DNA from: Helicobacteraceae bacterium
GTDB taxonomy: Bacteria > Campylobacterota > Campylobacteria > Campylobacterales > Sulfurimonadaceae
Direction: 5' to 3'
NCBI GenBank assembly: GCA_027038835.1
Contig: JALWGC010000008.1
Location: 1-64,000 of the forward strand
DNA: 64,000 bases
Below the pieces are notes generated by a model. The model ran no database searches. It was given only the letters and a program-made list of their open reading frames with translations, and was not told the DNA's origin. The translations under genes were made by a program, and so were the position numbers. Positions 4,636 through 16,535 of the stretch are shown piece after piece (within the stretch, counting starts at the first letter, position 1; every line of letters begins with the position of its first letter).

Positions 4636-5583
4636 ATGGAAACGAAATTCGATTCGATAAAAAAAGAGGTTGCAAAAGTAGTCGTGGGACAAGAGAAGAT
4701 GATAGACTCTTTGCTCATAGCTTTTTTCTGCGAGGGGCATATTCTCATAGAAGGGGTTCCGGGACTTGCCAAAACGACAACGGTTAACGCGTTGGCAAAA
4801 GCGCTTGGACTCAGTTTCAAACGTGCGCAGTTCACACCGGACCTACTTCCTGCCGACATCCTCGGAGCGGAGATTTACGACCCGAAAAACAACACTTTCA
4901 AAATCAAAAAAGGGCCTATATTTACCAACTTGCTCTTAGCCGATGAGATCAACCGTGCTCCTGCGAAAGTGCAGTCGGCATTGTTGGAGGTGATGCAAGA
5001 GAAACAAGTGACTTTGGGGGATACCACTTTCAAAATCGAAAAGCCGTTTTTCGTTATGGCGACGCAAAACCCCGTCGAGCAAGAAGGGGTGTACCAGCTT
5101 CCAGAAGCCCAACTCGACCGTTTTATGCTCAAGCTTGTCGTTTCGTACAACTCCAAAGAAGAAGAGCTCGAAATCGCGCGACGTATCTCAAGCGGCAATT
5201 TCGAAGAGATTCGGCCTGTCATCACCAAAGAGGAGATCGAAGAGATCAAAGAGCAGATAAAAGCGGTACATATAGACCCCGAGGTCGAAGAGTACATGAT
5301 AGAGCTCGTCAACGCTACGAGATATCCGTCTCAGTATGGGCTTGAGGAGATAGAGCACTTCATCCAATTCGGTGCGAGCCCCCGTGTGAGTATCGATATG
5401 TTCAAGGCGGTCAAAGCGATGGCGTATCTGCGTAAAAAAGAGTTCGTAACTCCCGTGGACGTGGCGTATTTGGCAAATGAAATCATGCGTCACCGTATCG
5501 TACTGACCTACGAAGCGGAAGCGGAGGGAATAACGACTGATGAAATCATTCAAAAAGTACTCGAAGCGGTGGAGATACCATAA
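4636..5583 (+). CDS. moxR: MoxR-family AAA+ ATPase
   Basis: The 315-residue AAA+ protein has Walker A GVPGLAKT (about residue 40), Walker B LLLADEINRA (about 98) and sensor-1 ATQNP (about 143). These are the MoxR subfamily hallmarks. MoxR proteins act as chaperones that assemble or activate proteins with von Willebrand A domains, often with metal cofactors. It heads an operon with a DUF58 protein, BatA, BatB/C and BatD; the next gene starts 9 bases on. AAAGG at 4625-4629 supports the start. A small hairpin (GTGCGC/GCGCAC near 4556-4573) lies in the 95-base gap before it, without a T-run. Confidence 0.95.
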   Translation: METKFDSIKKEVAKVVVGQEKMIDSLLIAFFCEGHILIEGVPGLAKTTTVNALAKALGLSFKRAQFTPDLLPADILGAEIYDPKNNTFKIKKGPIFTNLLLADEINRAPAKVQSALLEVMQEKQVTLGDTTFKIEKPFFVMATQNPVEQEGVYQLPEAQLDRFMLKLVVSYNSKEEELEIARRISSGNFEEIRPVITKEEIEEIKEQIKAVHIDPEVEEYMIELVNATRYPSQYGLEEIEHFIQFGASPRVSIDMFKAVKAMAYLRKKEFVTPVDVAYLANEIMRHRIVLTYEAEAEGITTDEIIQKVLEAVEIP

Positions 5584-5592
5584 GGTAAACTC

Positions 5593-6423
5593 ATGGGAAA
5601 ACTGCAAAAGATACTCGTTAAAGCCCGTCGTCAAGTCTTTAGCGAGATGATTGGAAACAACCCGTCCCCTTTTCATGGGGAGGGGTACGACTTCATAGAG
5701 CTACGAGAGTATATGCCCGGAGACGACATCCGCCATATCGATTGGAACATCACTGCGAAGATGCAGCGCCCTTTTGTCAAAGTTTTTCGTGAAGAGCGTG
5801 AGTTGAGCGTGAGTGTCGTTTCGGTGCTTAACGGAAGTGTGTATTTCGGCTCGAAACGTTTCAAACAAGAACTTATAGCCGAGATAAACGCGCTTTTGGG
5901 GTTTTCCGTTATCAAAAACGGAGACTTGCTAAGCTCGTTCATCTTTACCGACAAGCTCGAGAGTTCGCTCAAACCGAGTAAAAATATCTATTCGGTACAT
6001 AAGATGACCCAAAACGTTTTGGAGTTCGACCCGCTTGGTAAAAAGGTCGATTTCAAAACCGTTTCCGATACCCTTTTCAAACGAATTAGGCGAAAGTCGC
6101 TCATTGTGATAATAGGGGATTTTTTCGAAATACCCGATTTCAAGGTACTGGCTCGAAAGCATGAAGTTGTCGCCATCATAGTGCGCGACAGACTAGAAGA
6201 AGAGCCGCCGGAGATGGGGTTTGCATCTTTGGTCGATCCCGAAACCAACGAGGTGCTCGAGGGGGATTTTAACTCCTACAGTATCAAAGAGTACAAAAAA
6301 CGCGTTTTGCAAAACGATAGAAAGCTTTTTGAAACGTTGAAAAAACATCAAATCCGTTTTGCGAAAATCTATACCGATATGAACGAGTCGGTGATGCTAA
6401 GACGGATATTCGAGGCAAGATGA
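5593..6423 (+). CDS. DUF58 domain protein of the Bat operon
   Basis: The 276-residue protein carries the DUF58 signature ELREYMPGDDIRHIDWN (about residues 36-52), followed by the Arg/Lys-rich FVKVFREERE segment. DUF58 proteins nearly always accompany MoxR and Bat proteins and have a degenerate von Willebrand A fold; no transmembrane helix is seen in this one. It probably acts with the MoxR ATPase in assembling the membrane complex. Its stop overlaps the next start (ATGA), so translation is coupled. Exact biochemical role is unknown in the family. Confidence 0.93.
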   Translation: MGKLQKILVKARRQVFSEMIGNNPSPFHGEGYDFIELREYMPGDDIRHIDWNITAKMQRPFVKVFREERELSVSVVSVLNGSVYFGSKRFKQELIAEINALLGFSVIKNGDLLSSFIFTDKLESSLKPSKNIYSVHKMTQNVLEFDPLGKKVDFKTVSDTLFKRIRRKSLIVIIGDFFEIPDFKVLARKHEVVAIIVRDRLEEEPPEMGFASLVDPETNEVLEGDFNSYSIKEYKKRVLQNDRKLFETLKKHQIRFAKIYTDMNESVMLRRIFEAR

Positions 6424-6824
6424 TGCAACCGACACAACTCAAACTTCACGACATCAAACCGCTTGTCGAGATAGTCGATTATTCGTTTTACTATTTTTTG
6501 GCTTTAAGTGTTATCGGTACCGTTGTTTTCTTCGGTGCGCTTTATCTTTTGTTTGGATGGTTGAAACACAGAAAAAAAGAGAACAAGCGAAAAAAAGCGC
6601 TTGAAATACTGAAAAAGATCGATTTGAAAAAAGACCCCAAACAAGCGGCGTATCAGCTGACGAAATATGGTGCGGTTTTCAAAAACGACGATACTCGCCA
6701 TAAAGAGATGTATGAAAACATGGTTTCCAAACTCCAAAACTACAAATACAAAAAGGAAGTCGAACCTTTCGATAGTGAAACGGTTTCGGTTATAAACCTC
6801 TATAGAGAGATATGCGATGTTTGA
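6420..6824 (+). CDS. Single-pass membrane protein of the Bat operon (DUF4381-like)
   Basis: The 134-residue protein has one transmembrane helix (about residues 24-46) followed by a basic helix and a Lys-rich cytoplasmic part. Small membrane proteins at this position in Bat operons are usually called DUF4381. The sequence is too short and divergent for me to be certain of that. It overlaps the DUF58 gene by 4 bases and batA by 8, which ties it to the same machine. Confidence 0.75.
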   Translation: MMQPTQLKLHDIKPLVEIVDYSFYYFLALSVIGTVVFFGALYLLFGWLKHRKKENKRKKALEILKKIDLKKDPKQAAYQLTKYGAVFKNDDTRHKEMYENMVSKLQNYKYKKEVEPFDSETVSVINLYREICDV

Positions 6825-7746
6825 CGGGTTTTATTTCGAACTGCCAAAAGCGATCTCTTTTTTGTTCATTTTCATGGCGTGCGCTTCGCTTTGTCCTATG
6901 CGTTTGCCGTCGATCTATTTCCCTCATTCGTCGAGCTTCGTCAAAGCGAGCGCTTCAAATTCGAAGTTGCTGTTTTTCCTGAAGTGGCTTGGAATAACGA
7001 TGCTCGTGCTTGCCATCATGTCGCCGGTGCGCGATATCGAATACGAAAGCAACCCGAAAAAAGGGCATGAGATAGTGTTGGTACTCGATACGAGCGAATC
7101 GATGAAACAGCGGGGATTCGATCCGAGCAACCCGGCGCTTACCCGTTTTGACGTGGTGAAGCAGATCGTTTCGAAATTTATCGAAAAAAGAAAAGAGGAC
7201 AATATCGGTATGGTGGTTTTTGGGGCGTTTTCTTTCATCGCTTCGCCGCTAACGTACGATACACACATCCTGCAAGATATCCTTTCTCGACTTCAAATCG
7301 GGATAGCGGGGCGTTACACCGCATTATATACCGCTTTGGCACAAGGGGTGAACCTTTTGAAGATGAGCGAAGCGAAAAGCAAGGTGATTATTTTGCTCAC
7401 AGACGGCTACTCGACACCGAATGTCGATAAAATTCCTCTCGATGTGGTGCTCGATATGCTTAAAAAAGAGCATATCAAGGTTTATCCTATCGGCATAGGT
7501 TCATCACATGAATACAACAGACGTGTATTGCAAAAAATAGCCAAGACAAGCGGCGGTGTGGCTTTTGGGGCTAGAAGTGCCGCGGAACTTGACGAGATAT
7601 ACAAGAAGATAGACCAAATGGAGAAAACCAAAATCAAAAGTCAAAAATTCACCTATAAAAAGTACTATTACCATTTTCCGCTTTTTATCGGGTTCATTTC
7701 TCTGATGTTGTATGTTTTTCTGCTTAACCGAAGGGGGAGAGCATGA
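6817..7746 (+). CDS. batA: BatA: membrane-anchored von Willebrand factor A protein
   Basis: The 309-residue protein has two N-terminal hydrophobic segments (about 8-25 and 50-68), a VWA domain and a C-terminal helix (about 284-304). The MIDAS metal site is visible as D-T-S-E-S (VLDTSESMKQ) and the later LLTDGYS. BatA proteins were first linked to oxygen tolerance in Bacteroides; the molecular task is still unclear, and is thought to be sensing or maturing periplasmic proteins with MoxR. It overlaps both neighbours (8 and 4 bases). Confidence 0.92.
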   Translation: MFDGFYFELPKAISFLFIFMACASLCPMRLPSIYFPHSSSFVKASASNSKLLFFLKWLGITMLVLAIMSPVRDIEYESNPKKGHEIVLVLDTSESMKQRGFDPSNPALTRFDVVKQIVSKFIEKRKEDNIGMVVFGAFSFIASPLTYDTHILQDILSRLQIGIAGRYTALYTALAQGVNLLKMSEAKSKVIILLTDGYSTPNVDKIPLDVVLDMLKKEHIKVYPIGIGSSHEYNRRVLQKIAKTSGGVAFGARSAAELDEIYKKIDQMEKTKIKSQKFTYKKYYYHFPLFIGFISLMLYVFLLNRRGRA

Positions 7747-9614
7747 CGTTTTTGCATTCGGAATTTTTTTACTACATACTACCTCTTTTGGTTTTTTTGT
7801 TCGCTTTGTTGTTGACCCAAAAAGAGTCGGTGGCGACTTTTTTCAGCGACGAGGTTATGGAAAAACTGCGAGTTTCGACAAAAGGCTTGACGCTCAAAGC
7901 GCGCAACGCCTTGTTTTTTCTGGCCGGTTTTTTTATGATAACCGCATTGGCCGAGCCCGTCATCCCAAACGGTGAAACGTTCGTAGAGCAAAAAAGTGCC
8001 GACATCGTCATAGCGCTCGATATTTCCAACTCGATGCGCGCGCAAGATATCTACCCTTCCCGTTTGGAATCTTCCAAACAAAAAGCGATAGAGTTCATAC
8101 GTATGTTAAAGCAAAACAGAGTCGGCGTAGTGGCGTTCGCTAAGGGGAGTTACCTTGTTTCGCCGCTTAGTTTCGATACCGAAGCGGTGGCGTTTTTGTT
8201 GCAAAACCTCGACACCTCTTCGATAACCGAACAAGGAACCGATTTTATGGCGCTTTTGGAAACGGTGAAAAATGCTTCGCTAAAGTCGAAACACAAATAC
8301 CTGCTTCTTTTTACCGACGGCGGAGATAAGAAAGATTTTTCCAAAGAGGTCGCTTATGCCAACGACAATGGGATAACGGTGTTTGTCATCGGCGTGGGAA
8401 CGAAAATGGGCGCACCTATACCGATGGAAAATGGAGCGTTTTTGCATTACAAAGGGAAAACGGTCATTACGAAATTCAACGAAAAAGTGGAAGATTTGGC
8501 GCTAAAAACCGGCGGTGTGTTCATACAAGCGACCAACTCCAACCGTGATATCGAAGCGATGAAAAAGGAGATGGAACGGATAATAGAAAAGAAACTTTTG
8601 AAGCGCAAATCTATCAAAAAGTACATACCGCTGTTCTATTTGCCGCTTGGTGCGGCGATGTTGCTCGTACTCATAGCGCTTGCGTCTATGACCAAGCGAA
8701 GCGTAGTCGAAGTGCCTTCGATGTTCTTTGTCGGTTTTTTACTCCTTTTTTCCACGAACGCGAAAGCGGGTGTACTCGATTTTGTAGATATCAAAGAAGC
8801 GAAGCAGGCATACGTCAAAGGAGACTATAAAGAAGCTGCCAAAAAGTTCGAAGAATATGCACAAAGCAGTAAAAAACCGCATGCGTATTACGATGCGGCA
8901 AACGCGTACTACAAAGCGAAAAACTATAAAAAAGCACAAGAGCTTTACAAAAAGGTCCATACAAAAGATGCCGATTTGATGGCACATACGTTTCATAACC
9001 TCGGTAATACCTATGCGAACGAAGGAAAGTACGAAAAAGCGATAGAAGCGTACAAAGACGCTTTGAAGCTTCGAAAAGACAAGCAAATGGAAGAAAATTT
9101 AGAAACGGTGAAAAAGCTTTTGAGAAAACGAAAACAAAAAAAGCGGAATAAACAAAACCAGCAAAATCAGCAAAATCAGAAAAACCAGCAAAACCGGCAA
9201 AATCAGCAAAATCAGCAAAATCAGCAAAATCAGCAAAATCAGCAAAATCAGCAAAACCGAAAGGGGCAAAACGAAAACGCGCAGCAAAAAAACAGCAAGC
9301 AAAACCATCAAAACAAAAGTAAACAGAACGAAAAAACGAAATCGCAACAAAAAGAGAAACAAAAAAAGGATGAAAATTCCAAGCAAAAACGACACTCCAA
9401 AGAGCAACTCCAAAGGCTTGACCAAAATAGCTCGAAACAACGTTCCAAAAGCGGTGCTTCGCGTATGCCAAAAATAGAGCACAACGAAAAGAGAATGAGT
9501 GATGCCGAAGAGAGAAAGTGGCTCAAAGAGCTAAACAACGACGCAAAAACGTTTATGTACATGATAAAACCTGCGCAAAACGGAAGTGAGGATACAGATG
9601 AAAAACCTTGGTAA
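7743..9614 (+). CDS. batB: BatB-BatC fusion: VWA domain plus TPR and Gln/Asn-rich tail
   Basis: At 623 residues this is about twice the usual BatB. Residues 8-22 and 58-76 are membrane segments and residues 85-295 a VWA domain with intact MIDAS (ALDISNSMR, LFTDGGD). Two hydrophobic segments follow (about 305-325 and 330-350). Residues 355-465 hold TPR repeats (KGDYKEAAKKFEEYA, YDAANAYYKAKNYKKA) typical of BatC. Residues 470-540 are almost pure Gln, Asn and Lys, encoded by a 9-base tandem repeat. Thus BatB and BatC, separate genes in Bacteroides, are one chain here. It overlaps batA by 4 bases and batD by 17. The tail's charge and low complexity suggest a flexible periplasmic or cytoplasmic linker. 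Confidence 0.92.
   Translation: MTFLHSEFFYYILPLLVFLFALLLTQKESVATFFSDEVMEKLRVSTKGLTLKARNALFFLAGFFMITALAEPVIPNGETFVEQKSADIVIALDISNSMRAQDIYPSRLESSKQKAIEFIRMLKQNRVGVVAFAKGSYLVSPLSFDTEAVAFLLQNLDTSSITEQGTDFMALLETVKNASLKSKHKYLLLFTDGGDKKDFSKEVAYANDNGITVFVIGVGTKMGAPIPMENGAFLHYKGKTVITKFNEKVEDLALKTGGVFIQATNSNRDIEAMKKEMERIIEKKLLKRKSIKKYIPLFYLPLGAAMLLVLIALASMTKRSVVEVPSMFFVGFLLLFSTNAKAGVLDFVDIKEAKQAYVKGDYKEAAKKFEEYAQSSKKPHAYYDAANAYYKAKNYKKAQELYKKVHTKDADLMAHTFHNLGNTYANEGKYEKAIEAYKDALKLRKDKQMEENLETVKKLLRKRKQKKRNKQNQQNQQNQKNQQNRQNQQNQQNQQNQQNQQNQQNRKGQNENAQQKNSKQNHQNKSKQNEKTKSQQKEKQKKDENSKQKRHSKEQLQRLDQNSSKQRSKSGASRMPKIEHNEKRMSDAEERKWLKELNNDAKTFMYMIKPAQNGSEDTDEKPW
9154..9258 (+). repeat. In-frame 9-bp tandem repeat (cagcaaaat)n encoding Gln-Gln-Asn
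   Basis: About eleven to twelve copies of a 9-base unit, CAGCAAAAT with small variants, lie inside the batB/C gene. The core from about 9198 has six identical copies. Because the unit is a multiple of three, gain or loss of copies would change protein length without breaking the frame. On the opposite strand it produces a long (Phe-Ala-Asp)n open frame that is only a shadow. Confidence 0.9.
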
Positions 9615-11058
9615 GATAACAGTCTTTTTATTGATTGTAGCGGTAAGTTCCCTTTGGGGCGGTTCGGTTTTGGCCAGAGTCGATCACAAAAAAGTGTTAC
9701 CGGGTGAGAGCGTGACGCTGCAGCTCGATGTTTTCGGTTCCGATGTGGAAGCACCGCAAGTCGATTCCCTCTGCGGTGTGGACGTCTTAGCTACTTCTAC
9801 ACAACAAAGTATTCAAATCATAAACGGCAATATCTCTAAAAACTATGTCTATTCGTACAGATTCGAGCCTGAGAACAACTGTACCATCGAGCCGATTGCA
9901 GTCAAAGTCGATGGTAAGGTGGAAAAAACCAAACCCATAAATATCGTCGTAAGTAACCAAGTTCCTCAGAGCAAAGATAGAAATTTCATTTTGGAGCTTC
10001 ATAGCGAGAAAAAAGAGGTTTTTGTCGGCGAGCCTTTTGTGGTGAAGCTCGTTTTCAAACAAAAAAGCTCTGCCGATGCGATCGATTCGAAATTTTTTCC
10101 ACCCAAACTCGAGGGTTTTTGGATCAAGCATCAAAGTCAAGCGGATAAAAAACTTGTCGGAGATTACTACGTAACGACCATCACCTATATCATGGCCGCA
10201 CAGCGTGAGGGTGATCTACGCATTGCTCCTGCGAAGATAAAAATAGCCGTGCGCGATAATTCGGCGAACTACTGGAACAGTTTCGCTCCCGCCGTTAAGT
10301 GGCGAACCTACTATTCAAACCCGATAGAGATGAAAGTGTACGCTCCCCCTAAAGGGGTCAAGCTTGTAGGTAATTTCGACATCACCATAAGGGTCGATAA
10401 AACCGTAATCCATCCAAACGAAGCGGTCAATGCGGTGTTGACCATCAAAGGGGATGGGAACGTCGAAGACCTCGAAGCGTTCAAGCCCTACATACAAAAC
10501 GCGAACGTTTTTGCCGAAAAACCGATTGTAGATGAGAAAAACGGCATATTCACCCAAAAGATAGCTTTTGTCGGGGATAGCTCGTTTACCATCCCTTCGT
10601 TCTCGATTCGCTATTTCGATCCGAAAACGAAAAAGATACAGACAAAATCGACCGCACCGATCGATATCAAGGTCGAAGGCGCTAAGCAAGAAGCGGCGTT
10701 GAACATCAAAAAAGGAAGCGATGAAAATATCGCCGCTGCACAAAGTACCGAAGGTTCGTCCGCTTCGTCGGTCGATTCCTCCTTTGCGATAACGTGGGTC
10801 ATTTTGTCGTTTGTTGCAGGAATGTTCATAGGTGGAATCGTCGTCTTTTTCAAATTTTACGTCTCGAACAAGAAGCGAATCATGCGTTTTAACTTCGATG
10901 ACAAGAAAGTTCTGTTTGTGAAACTTCTGCCTTACAAAGATAAAAAAGATGTCAAAGAGGTGCTCGATATGCTTGAAGAACATCTCTACGGTTCAGGCAA
11001 AGGAGATATCGATAAAGAGAAACTTAAAAATATTATAAACAAATATGGTATAAAATAG
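9598..11058 (+). CDS. batD: BatD: large periplasmic membrane-anchored protein of the Bat operon
   Basis: The 486-residue protein has an N-terminal signal peptide (about 1-24), a long beta-rich periplasmic region that starts with the typical ARVDHKKVLPGESVTL strand pair, one transmembrane helix near residues 394-418 and a short cytoplasmic helical tail. These are features of BatD (oxygen tolerance) proteins. ATG 9598 is preferred over GTG 9586 because GAGG stands 6 bases upstream and the signal peptide begins there. It is the last gene of the operon; the next gene appears to have its own promoter within the batD 3' end. Confidence 0.9.
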   Translation: MKNLGKITVFLLIVAVSSLWGGSVLARVDHKKVLPGESVTLQLDVFGSDVEAPQVDSLCGVDVLATSTQQSIQIINGNISKNYVYSYRFEPENNCTIEPIAVKVDGKVEKTKPINIVVSNQVPQSKDRNFILELHSEKKEVFVGEPFVVKLVFKQKSSADAIDSKFFPPKLEGFWIKHQSQADKKLVGDYYVTTITYIMAAQREGDLRIAPAKIKIAVRDNSANYWNSFAPAVKWRTYYSNPIEMKVYAPPKGVKLVGNFDITIRVDKTVIHPNEAVNAVLTIKGDGNVEDLEAFKPYIQNANVFAEKPIVDEKNGIFTQKIAFVGDSSFTIPSFSIRYFDPKTKKIQTKSTAPIDIKVEGAKQEAALNIKKGSDENIAAAQSTEGSSASSVDSSFAITWVILSFVAGMFIGGIVVFFKFYVSNKKRIMRFNFDDKKVLFVKLLPYKDKKDVKEVLDMLEEHLYGSGKGDIDKEKLKNIINKYGIK

Positions 11059-11083: not shown

Positions 11084-11659
11084 ATGATTGACCCAATATT
11101 GCTTCGGATCGCCAAAACGGCGATTTTGTCGAAGTTCGACGACTCCTACGCCGTCGATAAAGAAAAACTGCTGCGTCAATACCCGTTTTTGGCACAAAAG
11201 GGTGCCGTTTTCGTTACGCTCAACAAAGGGCAAAGCCTAAGGGGGTGTATAGGTTCTATCATCGCGCACCGTCCTCTCATAGACGACATCGTACACAACG
11301 CCGAAAGTGCCGCTTTTAGCGACCCGAGGTTTCCTCCTTTGGAAGCCGAAGAGATCGATACTGCGTTGATGCTCGAGGTTTCGGTGCTAAGCGAACCGCA
11401 ACTGATAGAATATGACGATTACGAGGATTTGAAAAAGAAAATCGTTCCGCACAAAGACGGGCTGATTCTCAAATATGGGCAATACCAAGGGACTTTTTTG
11501 CCTCAGGTGTGGCAACAACTGCCCACGCCGGAGCAGTTTTTGGAACATCTCAGCTACAAAGCGGGTGCGAATCCTTCGATTTACTCTCTTCATCCAGACA
11601 TCTACAGATACCGCGTGGAGCATATACGGGAGCGATGGGATGCAATACAGCCGCTATAA
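11084..11659 (+). CDS. amrA: AMMECR1-family protein (AmmeMemoRadiSam system protein A)
   Basis: The 191-residue protein has the AMMECR1 hallmark LRGCIG (about residues 48-53) and a conserved C-terminal part (GTFLPQVWQQLPTPEQFLEHL). AMMECR1 is conserved from bacteria to humans but has no established reaction. In many prokaryotes it is encoded next to a MEMO homologue and a radical SAM enzyme, the set named AmmeMemoRadiSam by TIGRFAM curators. All three are here, overlapping by 20 and 4 bases, so they likely work in one pathway. TTAGGAG 7-8 bases upstream supports the start. The symbol follows the three-protein naming; it is not tied to an experiment. Confidence 0.93.
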   Translation: MIDPILLRIAKTAILSKFDDSYAVDKEKLLRQYPFLAQKGAVFVTLNKGQSLRGCIGSIIAHRPLIDDIVHNAESAAFSDPRFPPLEAEEIDTALMLEVSVLSEPQLIEYDDYEDLKKKIVPHKDGLILKYGQYQGTFLPQVWQQLPTPEQFLEHLSYKAGANPSIYSLHPDIYRYRVEHIRERWDAIQPL

Positions 11660-12635
11660 AAACGACGATGCCGTCACCTGCTTGTTGTGCAAACACTACT
11701 GCACTCTCAAAGAAGGAAAAACGGGGATTTGCGGCATCAACAAAAACGAAGGGGGTAAACTTCGAAATCTGACATATGCCCATCCAAGCGCTTTGCATCT
11801 CGACCCGATAGAAAAAAAACCGCTTTACCATTTCCTGCCCGCTTCTACTTCCCTTTCATTAGGTACCGTCGGGTGTAATTTCCGTTGCCCTTTTTGTCAA
11901 AACTATTCGATTTCGCAAACAGACAAGGTCAACGAAGCGAACTACTACCCTCCAGAAGCGATAGTGGCACTTGCATTGCAAAACAAAGCAAAAAGCATCA
12001 GTTACACCTACAACGAGCCGACGATTTGGTATCCGTATGCCAGAGATATCGCGGTTTTGGCGAAAAAAGCGGGTTTGAGAAACGTTTTTGTAACAAGCGG
12101 ATACGAGTCGGATGAGGTGCTTGAAGATATGCAAGGGATTATCGATGCGGCGAATGTCGATTTGAAAAGTTTTTCTCACGAATACTACAAAAAAGTGCTC
12201 AAAACATCGCTTGATGGGGTGCTGGAAAACCTTGAAAAATTCGCACGCTCCTCTATATGGGTCGAAGTTACGACACTTGTCGTTCCGGGGGTGAACGATT
12301 CCAAAGAGGAGCTTGAGCAGATGGCGGAGTTCATCGCTACGAAGATGGGTGTTGGAGTACCTTGGCATTTGAGTGCGTTCCATCCGGATTATAAGATGGG
12401 CACGACACCGCCGACTTCACTACAAAAGTTGCTTGAAGCCAAAGAGATAGGGGAAAAAGGGGGTCTAAAGTATGTTTACCTTGGTAATGTGCGCTATGAT
12501 GGTTCTACATACTGTCCGAAGTGTGCTTCGGTTTTGATAAAGCGGGAAGTGTATAGAACCGAAGTTCTTGGCTTGGACTTGGAAAAAGGGTGTTGTAGTG
12601 CGTGTGGAGAGATGATAGAAGGGGTATGGAAATGA
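11640..12635 (+). CDS. amrS: Radical SAM enzyme of the AmmeMemoRadiSam system
   Basis: The 331-residue protein contains the radical SAM cluster motif C-x3-C-x2-C (GCNFRCPFCQNY, about residue 78-89), which binds a 4Fe-4S cluster and S-adenosylmethionine. It is of the pyruvate formate-lyase activase type. A second Cys set is at the N-terminus (CLLCKHYC, then CGI) and a third at the C-terminus (YCPKC ... CCSAC), likely an auxiliary cluster or zinc site. ATG 11640 lies inside the end of the AMMECR1 gene; starts further upstream would add unrelated sequence read out of frame from that gene. Its substrate is not known for the family. Confidence 0.93.
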   Translation: MQYSRYKNDDAVTCLLCKHYCTLKEGKTGICGINKNEGGKLRNLTYAHPSALHLDPIEKKPLYHFLPASTSLSLGTVGCNFRCPFCQNYSISQTDKVNEANYYPPEAIVALALQNKAKSISYTYNEPTIWYPYARDIAVLAKKAGLRNVFVTSGYESDEVLEDMQGIIDAANVDLKSFSHEYYKKVLKTSLDGVLENLEKFARSSIWVEVTTLVVPGVNDSKEELEQMAEFIATKMGVGVPWHLSAFHPDYKMGTTPPTSLQKLLEAKEIGEKGGLKYVYLGNVRYDGSTYCPKCASVLIKREVYRTEVLGLDLEKGCCSACGEMIEGVWK

Positions 12636-13417
12636 AACGAGAAGAGAGTGTTGCAGGGAGTTTCTATCCGGCGAACGAAGAAGCGATAATGAACTATTTT
12701 CGCCATTTTACCGAATTGTTCGACAAACATGCCAAGCTCCCCCGTCTTTCGCCGCGTGCAGTCATAGTACCGCATGCGGGGTACGTTTACTCGGGTTTTA
12801 CCGCAAGTATCGCATACAGATTGTTGCAAAATAGCGGATTGAAAAAGTTCGTCGTTATCGGACCTTCGCACCGTATCGCTTTTAGAGGGAGCAGTATGTG
12901 CGGTTTTGACGCTTACGCTACACCTCTTGGAGATATCGAATCCGCCGATGATATCTTCAAGGCGATAGAGGAGCGTTTTTCACTCCCTTGCGTGTTGCAA
13001 GCGCACGGGGAACACTCCACGGAAGTGCAGTTTCCGTTTGTAAAACATTTCGTCGAAGATGCTTCGATAGTGGAGATTGTTTATTCGGACGAAGATGCGC
13101 ACCGTTTGGCGAAAATAATCGAGTATCTGTTGCAAAGAGAAGACTGCGGGGTGATTATCAGTACAGATTTGAGCCATTTTCATACATTGCAAAAAGCGAA
13201 CGAAATCGATAGCGTCTGTATAAAAGCGATCGAGACACTCGATATGTTTTTACTTTCCCAAGGGTGCGAAGCATGTGGAAAAATAGGCGTGGGCGCTATG
13301 ATTTTGGCGGCGAAACGGTTGGGGCTTTCACCTACGGTGCTCGATTATAGAACGAGTGCCGATGTAAGCGGTGATAGCGACAGAGTCGTTGGGTATGTGA
13401 GTGCAGCTTTTTCGTAA
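12632..13417 (+). CDS. amrB: MEMO-family protein (AmmeMemoRadiSam system protein B)
   Basis: The 261-residue MEMO1-like protein has the conserved PHAGYVYSG and GPSHRI motifs and the later ACGKIGVG segment. These carry the two His and one Cys equivalent to the metal ligands reported for human MEMO1. It is related in fold to class III extradiol dioxygenases. ATG 12632 is preferred: AAGGGG is 7 bases upstream and the start overlaps the radical SAM stop as ATGA. Human MEMO1 has been linked to iron binding and redox signalling; the bacterial role is unknown. Confidence 0.93.
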   Translation: MKREESVAGSFYPANEEAIMNYFRHFTELFDKHAKLPRLSPRAVIVPHAGYVYSGFTASIAYRLLQNSGLKKFVVIGPSHRIAFRGSSMCGFDAYATPLGDIESADDIFKAIEERFSLPCVLQAHGEHSTEVQFPFVKHFVEDASIVEIVYSDEDAHRLAKIIEYLLQREDCGVIISTDLSHFHTLQKANEIDSVCIKAIETLDMFLLSQGCEACGKIGVGAMILAAKRLGLSPTVLDYRTSADVSGDSDRVVGYVSAAFS

Positions 13418-13456: not shown

Positions 13457-13960
13457 TTGAAAAAGATATATATAGCCGGTCCCGATGTTTTCGAGCGACA
13501 AAGTGTCGAAATAGGGAAAAAAAACGTGGAAATTTGTAAAAAATACGGTTATATAGGGCTCTATCCTCTCGATAACGAAGTCGATTTCAACCAGTCAAAG
13601 CACTCCATCGCCTTGGATATTTTCAAAGCCAATACGAAAATGATTCAAGAGTGCGATATCGTTGTAGCCAATCTCAACCCGTTTCGCGGAAAAGAGAGCG
13701 ACAGCGGAACGGTTTGGGAGTGTGGATACGCTTACGGGCTTGGCAAAAAAGTTTATGGGTACATGGAAAAGACACATGATTATGTCGATTCGTTCACAGA
13801 TAAAGAGAAAAAGGAGCAAAACGGAGTTTTTTTCGACAACGAAGGAAGAATCATAGAAGATTTCGAGCATCCTCTCAATCTTATGATAGCGTGTTCGGTG
13901 GAGAAGATTTTTCAAGGGGATTTCGAAACGGCACTAAAGGGGATAAGTGCGCTTGCGTAG
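13457..13960 (+). CDS. Nucleoside 2-deoxyribosyltransferase family protein
   Basis: The 167-residue protein begins KKIYIAGPDVF and carries the SDSGTVWECGYAYGLGK motif, where Glu is the catalytic nucleophile of this family. The proteins exchange or hydrolyse the base of deoxynucleosides or nucleotides in salvage or house-cleaning. A TTG start at 13457 is chosen because GGAG is 6 bases upstream, the promoter TATAAT lies just before, and the conserved beta strand begins immediately. The gene overlaps the downstream kinase by 14 bases, so the two are co-translated. The exact substrate cannot be read from sequence. Confidence 0.88.
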   Translation: MKKIYIAGPDVFERQSVEIGKKNVEICKKYGYIGLYPLDNEVDFNQSKHSIALDIFKANTKMIQECDIVVANLNPFRGKESDSGTVWECGYAYGLGKKVYGYMEKTHDYVDSFTDKEKKEQNGVFFDNEGRIIEDFEHPLNLMIACSVEKIFQGDFETALKGISALA

Positions 13961-16535
13961 TTATTTACTTCTGTTTTTTTTGACACTCTCTTCTCTTTAT
14001 GGAAATTATAGTCGCGAAAATAAACTAGACCACGTCGTATTACAGCTTCATTGGCGTTACACCTACGATTTCGCCGGCTTTATCATGGCCAAAGAGAAAG
14101 GGTTTTACAAAGATGCCGGGCTTGATGTCAAGCTTAGAGAGTATAGATACGGAATGGACATAGAAAAGGAGGTTTTGGAGGGGAGAGCGAATTACGGCAT
14201 ATACAATTCGAAAATTTTGCTCGATTATCTACGCGGAAAACCACTAAAGCTTTTGGCGTCTTTTTTCAAACGCTCCGCGCTGGTTATCGTCGCTCAACCC
14301 GAGATAAAAACGCTTTTGGACCTCAAAGGCAAAACCGTCATGGGGGGAACGAAAAAAGATTTCATCATCAACTTCCAACCCTATTTCGAAAAGTACGGTT
14401 TGCATGTAAATGACATCAAAATCGTTCCCCATTCCTACCGTATAGATGAATTTGTACAAAAGAAAGTGGATGCGATGACCGCTTTTTTTTCCAACGAAAT
14501 CATAAAGCTTCGTGAAGCGGGTGTTCCTTTTACCGTATTTGACCCCAGCGAAGACAACTTGTTCGTGATGCAACTCGAGCTTTTTACCACACAAAACGAG
14601 TACAAGCACCACAAGGAAAGAACGGAAGATTTCATAAAAGCTTCCATCAAAGGGTGGGAGTACGTTTTCGCTCATCAGCAAGAGAGTATAGAGACTATCT
14701 ATAAAAAATACAATCCAAACCATCTAAGTAAGGAAGATATAGCCAAAGAAGCCAAAGCGGTCGAAAAGATGATACTCCCATATACATACGAAATAGGAAG
14801 CATCGATAAAAGTTTTTTGAAAAAACAATCAAAACTTTTTGAAAAATATTACGACATCGAAGTGCATAAACCGCTTGAGGATTACATCTACGACCCTTAC
14901 AAACCCGATACTTTGAAACTCACATACAAAGAGACGCAATATATAAAAAAGCATAAAAACGTGCCTTTGTGTGTCTATAAAGATTGGCTTCCCATAGATG
15001 ATTTGATAAAAGGGAAGCAAAGCGGTATCATGGGAGATATCTATGCGAAAATCGCTCAAAAAACTGGCTTGCGCTTTACGTATGTCGGTGTAGGCGATAT
15101 TCAAGAGTTTTACGATGCACTCAAGAATCGCAAGTGTAAAATCATTTCGGTTACTACACCGAGTTTGGCAAAAGCGTACAACCTTTTTTCTACCGATGTT
15201 TTCATGCAGAGTAGTTTTACCGTTTTGACCGCTTTGGACAAATCGTTTGTCAAAAATCCATATACACTACGAAAGAAAAAACTACTTGTAAGAAGTCATT
15301 TTGCAAAAAGTTATCTCGAGCGGATATATCCTTATTTGCAAATCACCTTCGAAAACGACCCGAAAAAGATGGCACAAGAGGTGATAAACGGCGAGAGTTA
15401 CGGCATTATAACATTCGATGAAAAAGCGGATTATTTCATAGACAAGTATGGAAACGGCAAATTGAAAGTGGGTGGTTTCTTGGCAAAACACAGACCCGTA
15501 CAAGCGGTCGTAGGAACAGTCAAAAGCGAGCCGGTTTTAGCTTCTATCATCAACAAAGCTTTGCAGTCGATATCGAAAAAAGAATTGGACAATATAGTCA
15601 ATAGCTGGCGGCTGACTCGCTACCATAAAGAGACCGACTATACGCTGCTTTTTGAGATTTTAGGCGTTTTTCTCGTAATCATCGCGATTATGTGGTACTA
15701 TCAGAGAAAGATAAAATGGCTCAATCAGGAACTTGAAAAGACAGTCGAGAAAAAAACGAAAGAACTGCGGGAGTTGAACGAACAACTCGAAGCGCTCGTG
15801 AAGCAAAAAGTCGAAGAGATAGTCCAAAAAGACAGAATCCTCGCCGTACAATCAAAACAGGCTGTGATGGGTGAGATGATAACGATGATAGCCCATCAAT
15901 GGAGGCAACCGCTCAATACCTTGACACTACAGATATCGAACTTGCAGCTAAGAAGAATGATGGGGGAGGTTGTCGATTTGGACGAATACGACAAAACGCT
16001 CGAACAAATCAGCAAAACCATCAATTATCTTTCCGAAACTATCGATGATTTTCAAACTTTTTTCCATCCCGATAGAGAGTTGAATTTCGTCGATTTGAAA
16101 GAAGTGGTGCAAAAAGCGGTCAATTTCGTTTTACCGAGAATCAAAAGCGACGACGTCGAGATACTGATCGATATCGAAGACAAAGAGGCGATGACCAACG
16201 TTTATGTAAACGAACTTATACAGATACTTTTGAATCTTTTGAACAACGCCATAGACGCTTTGGAGGAGTGCGATAAAGAGGAGAAAAAGATAAATATAAG
16301 TGCCCGTCAAGAAGAAGACACCATACAGATTTTCGTCAAGGATACCGCTTGCGGTATAGATGAAGAGATTGTCGAGAGATTGTTCGAGCCATATTTCAGT
16401 ACCAAAGGGAAAAACGGTACGGGGCTTGGGTTGTACATGAGTCAGATGATCATTCAAAAACAGTTCGGCGGAGAGATTCGGGTGGAATCTTCGAAAGAGG
16501 GAAGTACTTTCATAGTAGAGTTTACGAAATTCTAA
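13947..16535 (+). CDS. Orphan sensor histidine kinase with NMT1-like and SBP3-like periplasmic domains
   Basis: The 862-residue protein has a signal sequence (about 1-20). An NMT1/ThiY-like substrate-binding domain follows (about 28-290; LQLHWRYTYDFAGFIMAKEKGFYKDAG is split here only by function). Next come a second solute-binding domain of the SBP_bac_3 type (about 320-560), a membrane helix (about 565-585), a coiled coil and a kinase. His650 lies in the H-box AHQWRQPLNTL. The N-box (NLLNNAIDAL), DTACGIDEE and GTGLGLY motifs complete a HisKA-type kinase. No response regulator is adjacent. GTG 13947 fits GGGG 4 bases upstream; TTG 13953 is an alternative. NMT1 domains elsewhere bind pyrimidine thiamin precursors or sulfonates, so the ligand may be of that kind (inference). 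Confidence 0.9.
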   Translation: MRLRSYLLLFFLTLSSLYGNYSRENKLDHVVLQLHWRYTYDFAGFIMAKEKGFYKDAGLDVKLREYRYGMDIEKEVLEGRANYGIYNSKILLDYLRGKPLKLLASFFKRSALVIVAQPEIKTLLDLKGKTVMGGTKKDFIINFQPYFEKYGLHVNDIKIVPHSYRIDEFVQKKVDAMTAFFSNEIIKLREAGVPFTVFDPSEDNLFVMQLELFTTQNEYKHHKERTEDFIKASIKGWEYVFAHQQESIETIYKKYNPNHLSKEDIAKEAKAVEKMILPYTYEIGSIDKSFLKKQSKLFEKYYDIEVHKPLEDYIYDPYKPDTLKLTYKETQYIKKHKNVPLCVYKDWLPIDDLIKGKQSGIMGDIYAKIAQKTGLRFTYVGVGDIQEFYDALKNRKCKIISVTTPSLAKAYNLFSTDVFMQSSFTVLTALDKSFVKNPYTLRKKKLLVRSHFAKSYLERIYPYLQITFENDPKKMAQEVINGESYGIITFDEKADYFIDKYGNGKLKVGGFLAKHRPVQAVVGTVKSEPVLASIINKALQSISKKELDNIVNSWRLTRYHKETDYTLLFEILGVFLVIIAIMWYYQRKIKWLNQELEKTVEKKTKELRELNEQLEALVKQKVEEIVQKDRILAVQSKQAVMGEMITMIAHQWRQPLNTLTLQISNLQLRRMMGEVVDLDEYDKTLEQISKTINYLSETIDDFQTFFHPDRELNFVDLKEVVQKAVNFVLPRIKSDDVEILIDIEDKEAMTNVYVNELIQILLNLLNNAIDALEECDKEEKKINISARQEEDTIQIFVKDTACGIDEEIVERLFEPYFSTKGKNGTGLGLYMSQMIIQKQFGGEIRVESSKEGSTFIVEFTKF

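Follow-up and report, generated by a model that had tools for sequence, protein, structure and literature searches.

Conservation of AMMECR1 and MEMO extends from archaea to humans, in which both are important for development and cancer. Together with a radical SAM enzyme, they make up the AmmeMemoRadiSam set, which is already curated and named (NCBIfam models of type "hypoth_equivalog"; amrA, amrB, and amrS in RefSeq), and the prokaryotic operon, which includes the radical SAM partner, offers the most tractable setting for finding the AMMECR1/MEMO reaction. In the open-access literature searched, we found only passing mentions of the set and no published reaction, in line with the original prediction, which had called the bacterial reaction unknown. 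Human MEMO1 binds iron through H49, H81, and C244 and affects iron homeostasis, and dioxygenase activity was not found for it (PMC11081632). The archaeal AMMECR1 structures 1vaj, 1wsc, and 1zq7 share the fold and the LRGCIG motif of the AMMECR1 protein described here; they were deposited without an assigned function, and the entries contain no partner proteins. Two other enzyme groups bear comparison: LigB-type extradiol dioxygenases, which resemble MEMO in fold, and glycyl-radical activases (including the PFL activating enzyme), which resemble the radical SAM protein in their radical SAM core and CX3CX2C motif.

The amrA-amrS-amrB operon and its flanks

In the window, a 64,000-nt stretch of a Helicobacteraceae genome, the genes for AMMECR1, the radical SAM enzyme, and MEMO lie consecutively at positions 11084 to 13417, all on the plus strand (Table 1). 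The overlaps of 20 nt (amrA/amrS) and 4 nt (amrS/amrB; ATGA) suggest that translation of the three genes is coupled. All three proteins score above their NCBIfam cut-offs, the Pfam matches agree with these assignments, and the family identity of the genes is far beyond chance; the adjacency and overlap originally described for them are borne out. Every motif of the system is present: LRGCIG in protein A, CX3CX2C in the radical SAM protein, and the His-His-Cys site in protein B. A longer radical SAM reading frame of 386 aa, starting at 11475, was discarded as a mechanical prediction that relatives do not support. Each of the three genes is found only once in the source genome. In a radical SAM tree, the window protein groups with mostly Sulfurimonas operons, all with AMMECR1 and MEMO attached, in a clade with strong support (100/99), and its closest relative is 70% identical. 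The genes adjoin and overlap as in the Sulfurimonas operons, and only the flanks are particular to the source genome, with no essential difference from the described system. We are dealing almost certainly with a complete, single-copy AmmeMemoRadiSam operon and, since the set is already catalogued, with an ordinary member.

Table 1. Coordinates of the operon, its predicted functional sites, its neighbors, and related genes at compared loci
Feature	Sequence	Coordinates	Strand	Remarks
amrA (AMMECR1; AmmeMemoRadiSam protein A)	Window	11084..11659	+	191 aa; TIGR04335 199.9 bits (cut-off 99); PF01871 1.2e-43
LRGCIG motif (L52-G57)	Window	11237..11254	+	L52, R53, G54, C55, and G57 invariant in 38 homologs
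amrS (radical SAM; AmmeMemoRadiSam rS)	Window	11640..12635	+	331 aa, ATG 11640; TIGR04337 354 bits (cut-off 220); Radical_SAM 3.3e-26
N-terminal four-cysteine site C14-x2-C17-x3-C21-x9-C31	Window	11679..11732	+	Invariant in 51 homologs; kept when SAM-cluster Cys lost
Cluster motif C79-x3-C83-x2-C86	Window	11874..11897	+	Invariant in 51 homologs
C-terminal four-cysteine site C292-x2-C295 ... C319-x2-C322	Window	12513..12605	+	Invariant in 51 homologs; kept when SAM-cluster Cys lost
amrB (MEMO; AmmeMemoRadiSam protein B)	Window	12632..13417	+	261 aa, ATG 12632; TIGR04336 232.7 bits (cut-off 26); PF01875 (Memo) 6.1e-47
H48, predicted iron ligand	Window	12773..12775	+	Aligns with human MEMO1 H49
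H80, predicted iron ligand	Window	12869..12871	+	Aligns with human MEMO1 H81
C215, predicted iron ligand	Window	13274..13276	+	Aligns with human MEMO1 C244
VVGY motif (252-255)	Window	13385..13396	+	In 89/90 MEMOs of the Campylobacterota-centered (bacterial-type) set
Bat-type cluster	Window	4636-11058	+	MoxR, DUF58, vWA, vWA-TPR, BatD
Nucleoside 2-deoxyribosyltransferase	Window	13457-13960		PF05014
Sensor histidine kinase	Window	13947-16535		NMT1/THI5-like and SBP_bac_3 ligand-binding domains
Protein-L-isoaspartate methyltransferase	L146	4714-5334		Also L078, L081-L083, L086, L096, L102, and others
Protein-L-isoaspartate methyltransferase	L169	7783-8394
LigB (PF02900)-AMMECR1 fusion	L239	1368-2996		Keeps MEMO's Cys and GVGY motif
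LigB (PF02900)-AMMECR1 fusion	L240	749-2830		Keeps MEMO's Cys and GVGY motif
LigB (PF02900)-AMMECR1 fusion	L220	1815-3116		Keeps MEMO's Cys and GVGY motif
Cluster-less radical SAM homolog	L217	3584-5104
Cluster-less radical SAM homolog	L218	4551-6178
Cluster-less radical SAM homolog	L219	4499-6153
593-aa radical SAM homolog	L040	6060-7841
593-aa radical SAM homolog	L042	6212-7993
Tandem unlinked radical SAM paralogs	L167	7088-9129		Two copies
Short AMMECR1-like protein	L056	5844-6194		Conserved context
Short AMMECR1-like protein	L057	5791-6162		Conserved context
Short AMMECR1-like protein	L058	5275-5628		Conserved context
Short AMMECR1-like protein	L059	5440-5772		Conserved context

Upstream of the operon, separated by a gap of 25 nt and in the same direction as amrA, lies a Bat-type cluster that may share a transcript with it. 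We discarded this cluster as a part of the system because it was not seen beside the set in the relatives compared. Directly downstream of the MEMO gene is a nucleoside 2-deoxyribosyltransferase gene, an adjacency that formed no recurrent cluster among the relatives compared, and a sensor histidine kinase gene is found further along. A conserved fourth gene was likewise discarded: only the gene for protein-L-isoaspartate methyltransferase recurs tightly, and it does so in some Campylobacterota only, where it lies beside the gene for the radical SAM enzyme or for MEMO at 13 loci spread over two radical SAM paralog clades. It remains a lead.

Co-occurrence, fusions, and loss of the operon copy

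The original prediction held that the three proteins act together and called for a check of their co-occurrence. Among 150 Campylobacterota genomes, 36 carry all three genes, 4 carry AMMECR1 and MEMO, and 1 carries AMMECR1 only; the radical SAM gene alone or MEMO alone was found in none of the 150. Each pair co-occurs with a Fisher p of <1e-28, a significance that shared ancestry inflates. The pair of AMMECR1 and MEMO was kept, with no radical SAM partner detected, in two Arcobacter-like genera. The 201 Chloroflexota genomes were more varied: 51 have the full set (one of them, G359, counted via a weak MEMO match that in fact represents a LigB domain), 9 have AMMECR1 and the radical SAM gene, 2 have the radical SAM gene and MEMO, 22 have MEMO only, 4 have the radical SAM gene only, and 6 have AMMECR1 adjoining nothing but a sub-threshold radical SAM homolog. 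In 194 DPANN archaea, the radical SAM gene occurs with MEMO in 66 genomes, MEMO occurs without it in 25, and it occurs without MEMO in 4. Finally, all 27 non-Campylobacterota genomes chosen for their radical SAM gene have MEMO and 21 have AMMECR1; Thermus has the radical SAM gene and MEMO without AMMECR1. Many of the surveyed genomes are drafts, so the absences are soft.

These surveys bear on the view that the genes are neighbors without a joint function. Each gene does stand apart from the others in some genomes, and MEMO was found without a detected radical SAM gene in 22 Chloroflexota and 25 DPANN genomes. However, the pattern named originally as a refutation, genes occurring alone as often as together, was not seen in the Campylobacterota, Chloroflexota, or DPANN surveys, and the MEMO-only Chloroflexota proteins that we read mostly belong to a divergent family: 13 of them are stand-alone proteins, most of about 410 to 450 aa, and apart from these, G200 encodes a true MEMO with no partners detected. 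(The fourteenth sequence in the stand-alone MEMO alignment, L215, comes from G374, which has the full set too.) Repeated gene fusions and an unlinked radical SAM paralog, described below, also speak against mere neighborhood, which we regard as extremely improbable.

Two combinations of the genes are fused in nature. Radical SAM-MEMO fusions occur at L031/L115, L087, and L107. We found MEMO-AMMECR1 fusions in Campylobacterota (L032 and L098), in many Chloroflexota (among L173 to L192), and, with a shared open frame as the criterion, in Roizmanbacteria, Aenigmatarchaeota, Uhrbacteria, and Bacteroidota. From alignments of the window proteins and the compared loci, we built AlphaFold models of a natural MEMO-AMMECR1 fusion (mean pLDDT, 95; pTM, 0.79) and a natural radical SAM-MEMO fusion (mean pLDDT, 92; pTM, 0.75), both of which are read for domain folds only.

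In two genomes (G125 and G115), the radical SAM gene is gone from an operon whose flanks match those of intact operons (L051 versus L072 and L053 versus L076). Both genomes, as well as G132, have an unlinked radical SAM paralog that forms a separate supported clade in the tree. Because the genomes that lost the operon copy carry this paralog, radical SAM activity seems to be needed even there, the exception being the two Arcobacter-like genera. At L167, two copies of the unlinked paralog lie in tandem, and similar tandems are found at L013 and L020. The co-occurrence, the two fusion combinations, and the unlinked paralog after operon loss support the original view that the three belong together, as one genetic unit, and we consider it very likely that their products form one functional, enzymatic unit.

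Cysteine sites, metal ligands, and the MEMO glycine

Eleven cysteines are invariant in 51 radical SAM homologs, three in the cluster motif and the others in two sets of four. The original prediction took the extra cysteine sites as pointing to a radical modification, for which they are poor evidence in view of a clade of Chloroflexota homologs in which all three cluster cysteines are gone and the eight others are retained in 15 of 15 sequences (L217 to L219 and L221 to L232, excluding loci of other genes). These sub-cut-off homologs had first been read as enzymes, a reading rejected for the absence of the cluster cysteines. Since the eight cysteines are kept without a SAM cluster, they need not serve radical chemistry and probably have a role independent of it, most simply zinc binding; structural sites, probably for zinc, are more likely here than clusters for radical chemistry. 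Six of the 15 cluster-less homologs adjoin a divergent AMMECR1 gene, in genomes in which no MEMO was detected. The homologs at L217 and L218 lie near genes for a glycine cleavage T protein and a lipoate ligase. Two other homologs are 593 aa long (L040 and L042); the one at L040 has a C-terminal periplasmic-binding-protein-like domain, and its neighbors encode a binding protein and a methyltransferase.

The nearest PDB fold to the radical SAM part of the fusion model, found with Foldseek, is that of the PFL activase (3cb8, 3c8f, and 8fo0; TM-scores, 0.80 to 0.82), and RlmN and TYW1 are weaker matches. The window protein nevertheless differs from glycyl-radical activases: it falls far below their cut-offs (TIGR02494, 57.8 versus 174.35 bits; TIGR02493, 54.4 versus 231.75 bits), carries the two extra four-cysteine sites, and belongs to an operon without a glycyl-radical enzyme. 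These matches are relevant to the substrate, for which the class "peptide or nucleotide" put forward originally is a guess. A role of the set in maturing or repairing a protein or peptide whose gene lies elsewhere would agree with the peptide substrates of the PFL activase and of several other fold and profile matches, with the occurrence of a related radical SAM domain in conflict systems that process peptides (PMC7159879), and with the methyltransferase gene beside the set in the 13 Campylobacterota loci. Nevertheless, that link is limited to some Campylobacterota and the neighborhood clusters (open reading frames of at least 60 aa) hold no conserved small peptide gene, and we consider such a role unlikely. 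We would assign the same low probability to modification of a nucleic acid base or other nucleotide, with the four-cysteine sites as RNA-binding zinc ribbons. Burroughs et al. are said to have linked Memo contexts in 2019 to nucleotide base and isoprenoid modification, and the RlmN and TYW1 matches point the same way; the PFL activase match, however, is stronger than that to any RNA enzyme, and no recurrent tRNA or rRNA modification gene adjoins the operon among the loci compared.

For the MEMO part of the fusion models, the nearest PDB structure is human MEMO1 (TM-score, 0.75 to 0.77), followed by LigB-type dioxygenases (Foldseek matches to 5hee, 7txy, and 3vsg; E values, 1e-8 to 9e-7). The human homolog claimed for MEMO is confirmed, and the predicted His, His, and Cys metal ligands align with those of MEMO1 (Table 1). 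E127, H128, D179, and H182 are also invariant among homologs. LigB-type dioxygenases have a Glu as the third iron ligand, in contrast to C215 in the window protein, which accordingly does not show their two-His-one-carboxylate site. A His-His-Cys set of iron ligands is of the peptide deformylase type, as opposed to the His-His-Glu set of ring-cleaving dioxygenases. In three Chloroflexota genomes (G187, G189, and G359), a LigB domain that has kept the Cys is fused to AMMECR1 in the position of MEMO; these genomes have their radical SAM gene elsewhere and no ordinary MEMO. In three further Chloroflexota genomes, the AMMECR1 reading frame is long and may likewise encode a LigB-AMMECR1 fusion.

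The conserved metal ligands, together with the iron binding and iron homeostasis effects of the human protein, would fit MEMO and AMMECR1 being primarily iron-handling or redox-protective proteins, with the radical SAM enzyme in an accessory role. This view leaves unexplained both the radical SAM paralog that persists after loss of the operon copy and the LigB-type domains that replace MEMO, and we consider it very unlikely.

The C terminus of MEMO (R-V-V-G-Y) resembles the R-V-S-G-Y target of pyruvate formate-lyase, which raised the idea that the radical SAM enzyme acts as an activase and places a glycyl radical on MEMO at Gly254. The similarity of the enzyme to the PFL activase in fold and profile would agree with this idea, as would the near-universal VVGY of bacterial-type MEMOs and the replacement of the Gly, with the metal residues kept, by Ser in human MEMO1 and by Ser or Thr in the stand-alone Chloroflexota MEMO-like proteins. 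We discarded it after an archaeal test. Of 30 DPANN MEMOs with strong matches, nearly all encoded in genomes that have the radical SAM gene, 12 carry Ser, Asp, or Asn where the Gly would be; examined genome by genome, G506, G509, G472, G402, G391, G515, G522, and G525 possess the radical SAM gene, and their only MEMO lacks the Gly. Conversely, Arcobacter-like genomes without the radical SAM gene retain the Gly, and Pfam finds no glycyl-radical domain in AMMECR1 or MEMO. Glycyl-radical activation of MEMO is therefore highly unlikely. The Gly marks a MEMO subfamily and not a radical SAM partner.

A proposed joint function

Our best explanation as a whole, to which we would give not quite even confidence, is a complete operon encoding one enzyme unit in which radical SAM chemistry is coupled to an Fe-thiolate step. 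A tentative mechanism can be outlined, one that we hold with limited confidence. AMMECR1, in which D80, R82, E98, and K159 are invariant besides LRGC, would hold or present the substrate. The PFL-activase-like radical SAM enzyme would initiate radical chemistry by taking a hydrogen atom from the substrate so presented, under low oxygen. MEMO, with its LigB fold and predicted Fe(II) His-His-Cys site, would carry out the coupled Fe(II) step, which may be hydrolytic or redox and would not require O2. In an independent study, AMMECR1 ranked first among anaerobe markers (PMC13386939), which fits radical SAM chemistry under low oxygen. Partial sets exist (Arcobacter-like genomes, Thermus, and humans, whose MEMO has no known radical SAM partner), so every step has to be workable with one partner missing.

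It is possible, though doubtful, that this mechanism extends to the variants, as an O2-independent LigB chemistry in anaerobes. The radical SAM enzyme and an Fe-thiolate LigB-fold protein would then act in sequence on one AMMECR1-presented substrate; in some Chloroflexota, the Cys-keeping LigB-AMMECR1 fusions would replace MEMO, and in another branch, the cluster-less homolog would pair with AMMECR1 as a non-radical scaffold. Although the locus itself is ordinary, such natural variants give it its value, as they frame an experiment: operons minus the radical SAM gene, cluster-less homologs, LigB replacement, and stand-alone MEMO allow the roles of the individual proteins to be told apart.

The AMMECR1 part of the MEMO-AMMECR1 fusion model has the uncharacterized protein 1vaj as its nearest PDB fold (TM-score, 0.81). 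Besides full AMMECR1, Sulfurimonadaceae-type genomes encode short AMMECR1-like proteins of 110 to 123 aa that correspond to the N-terminal half only.
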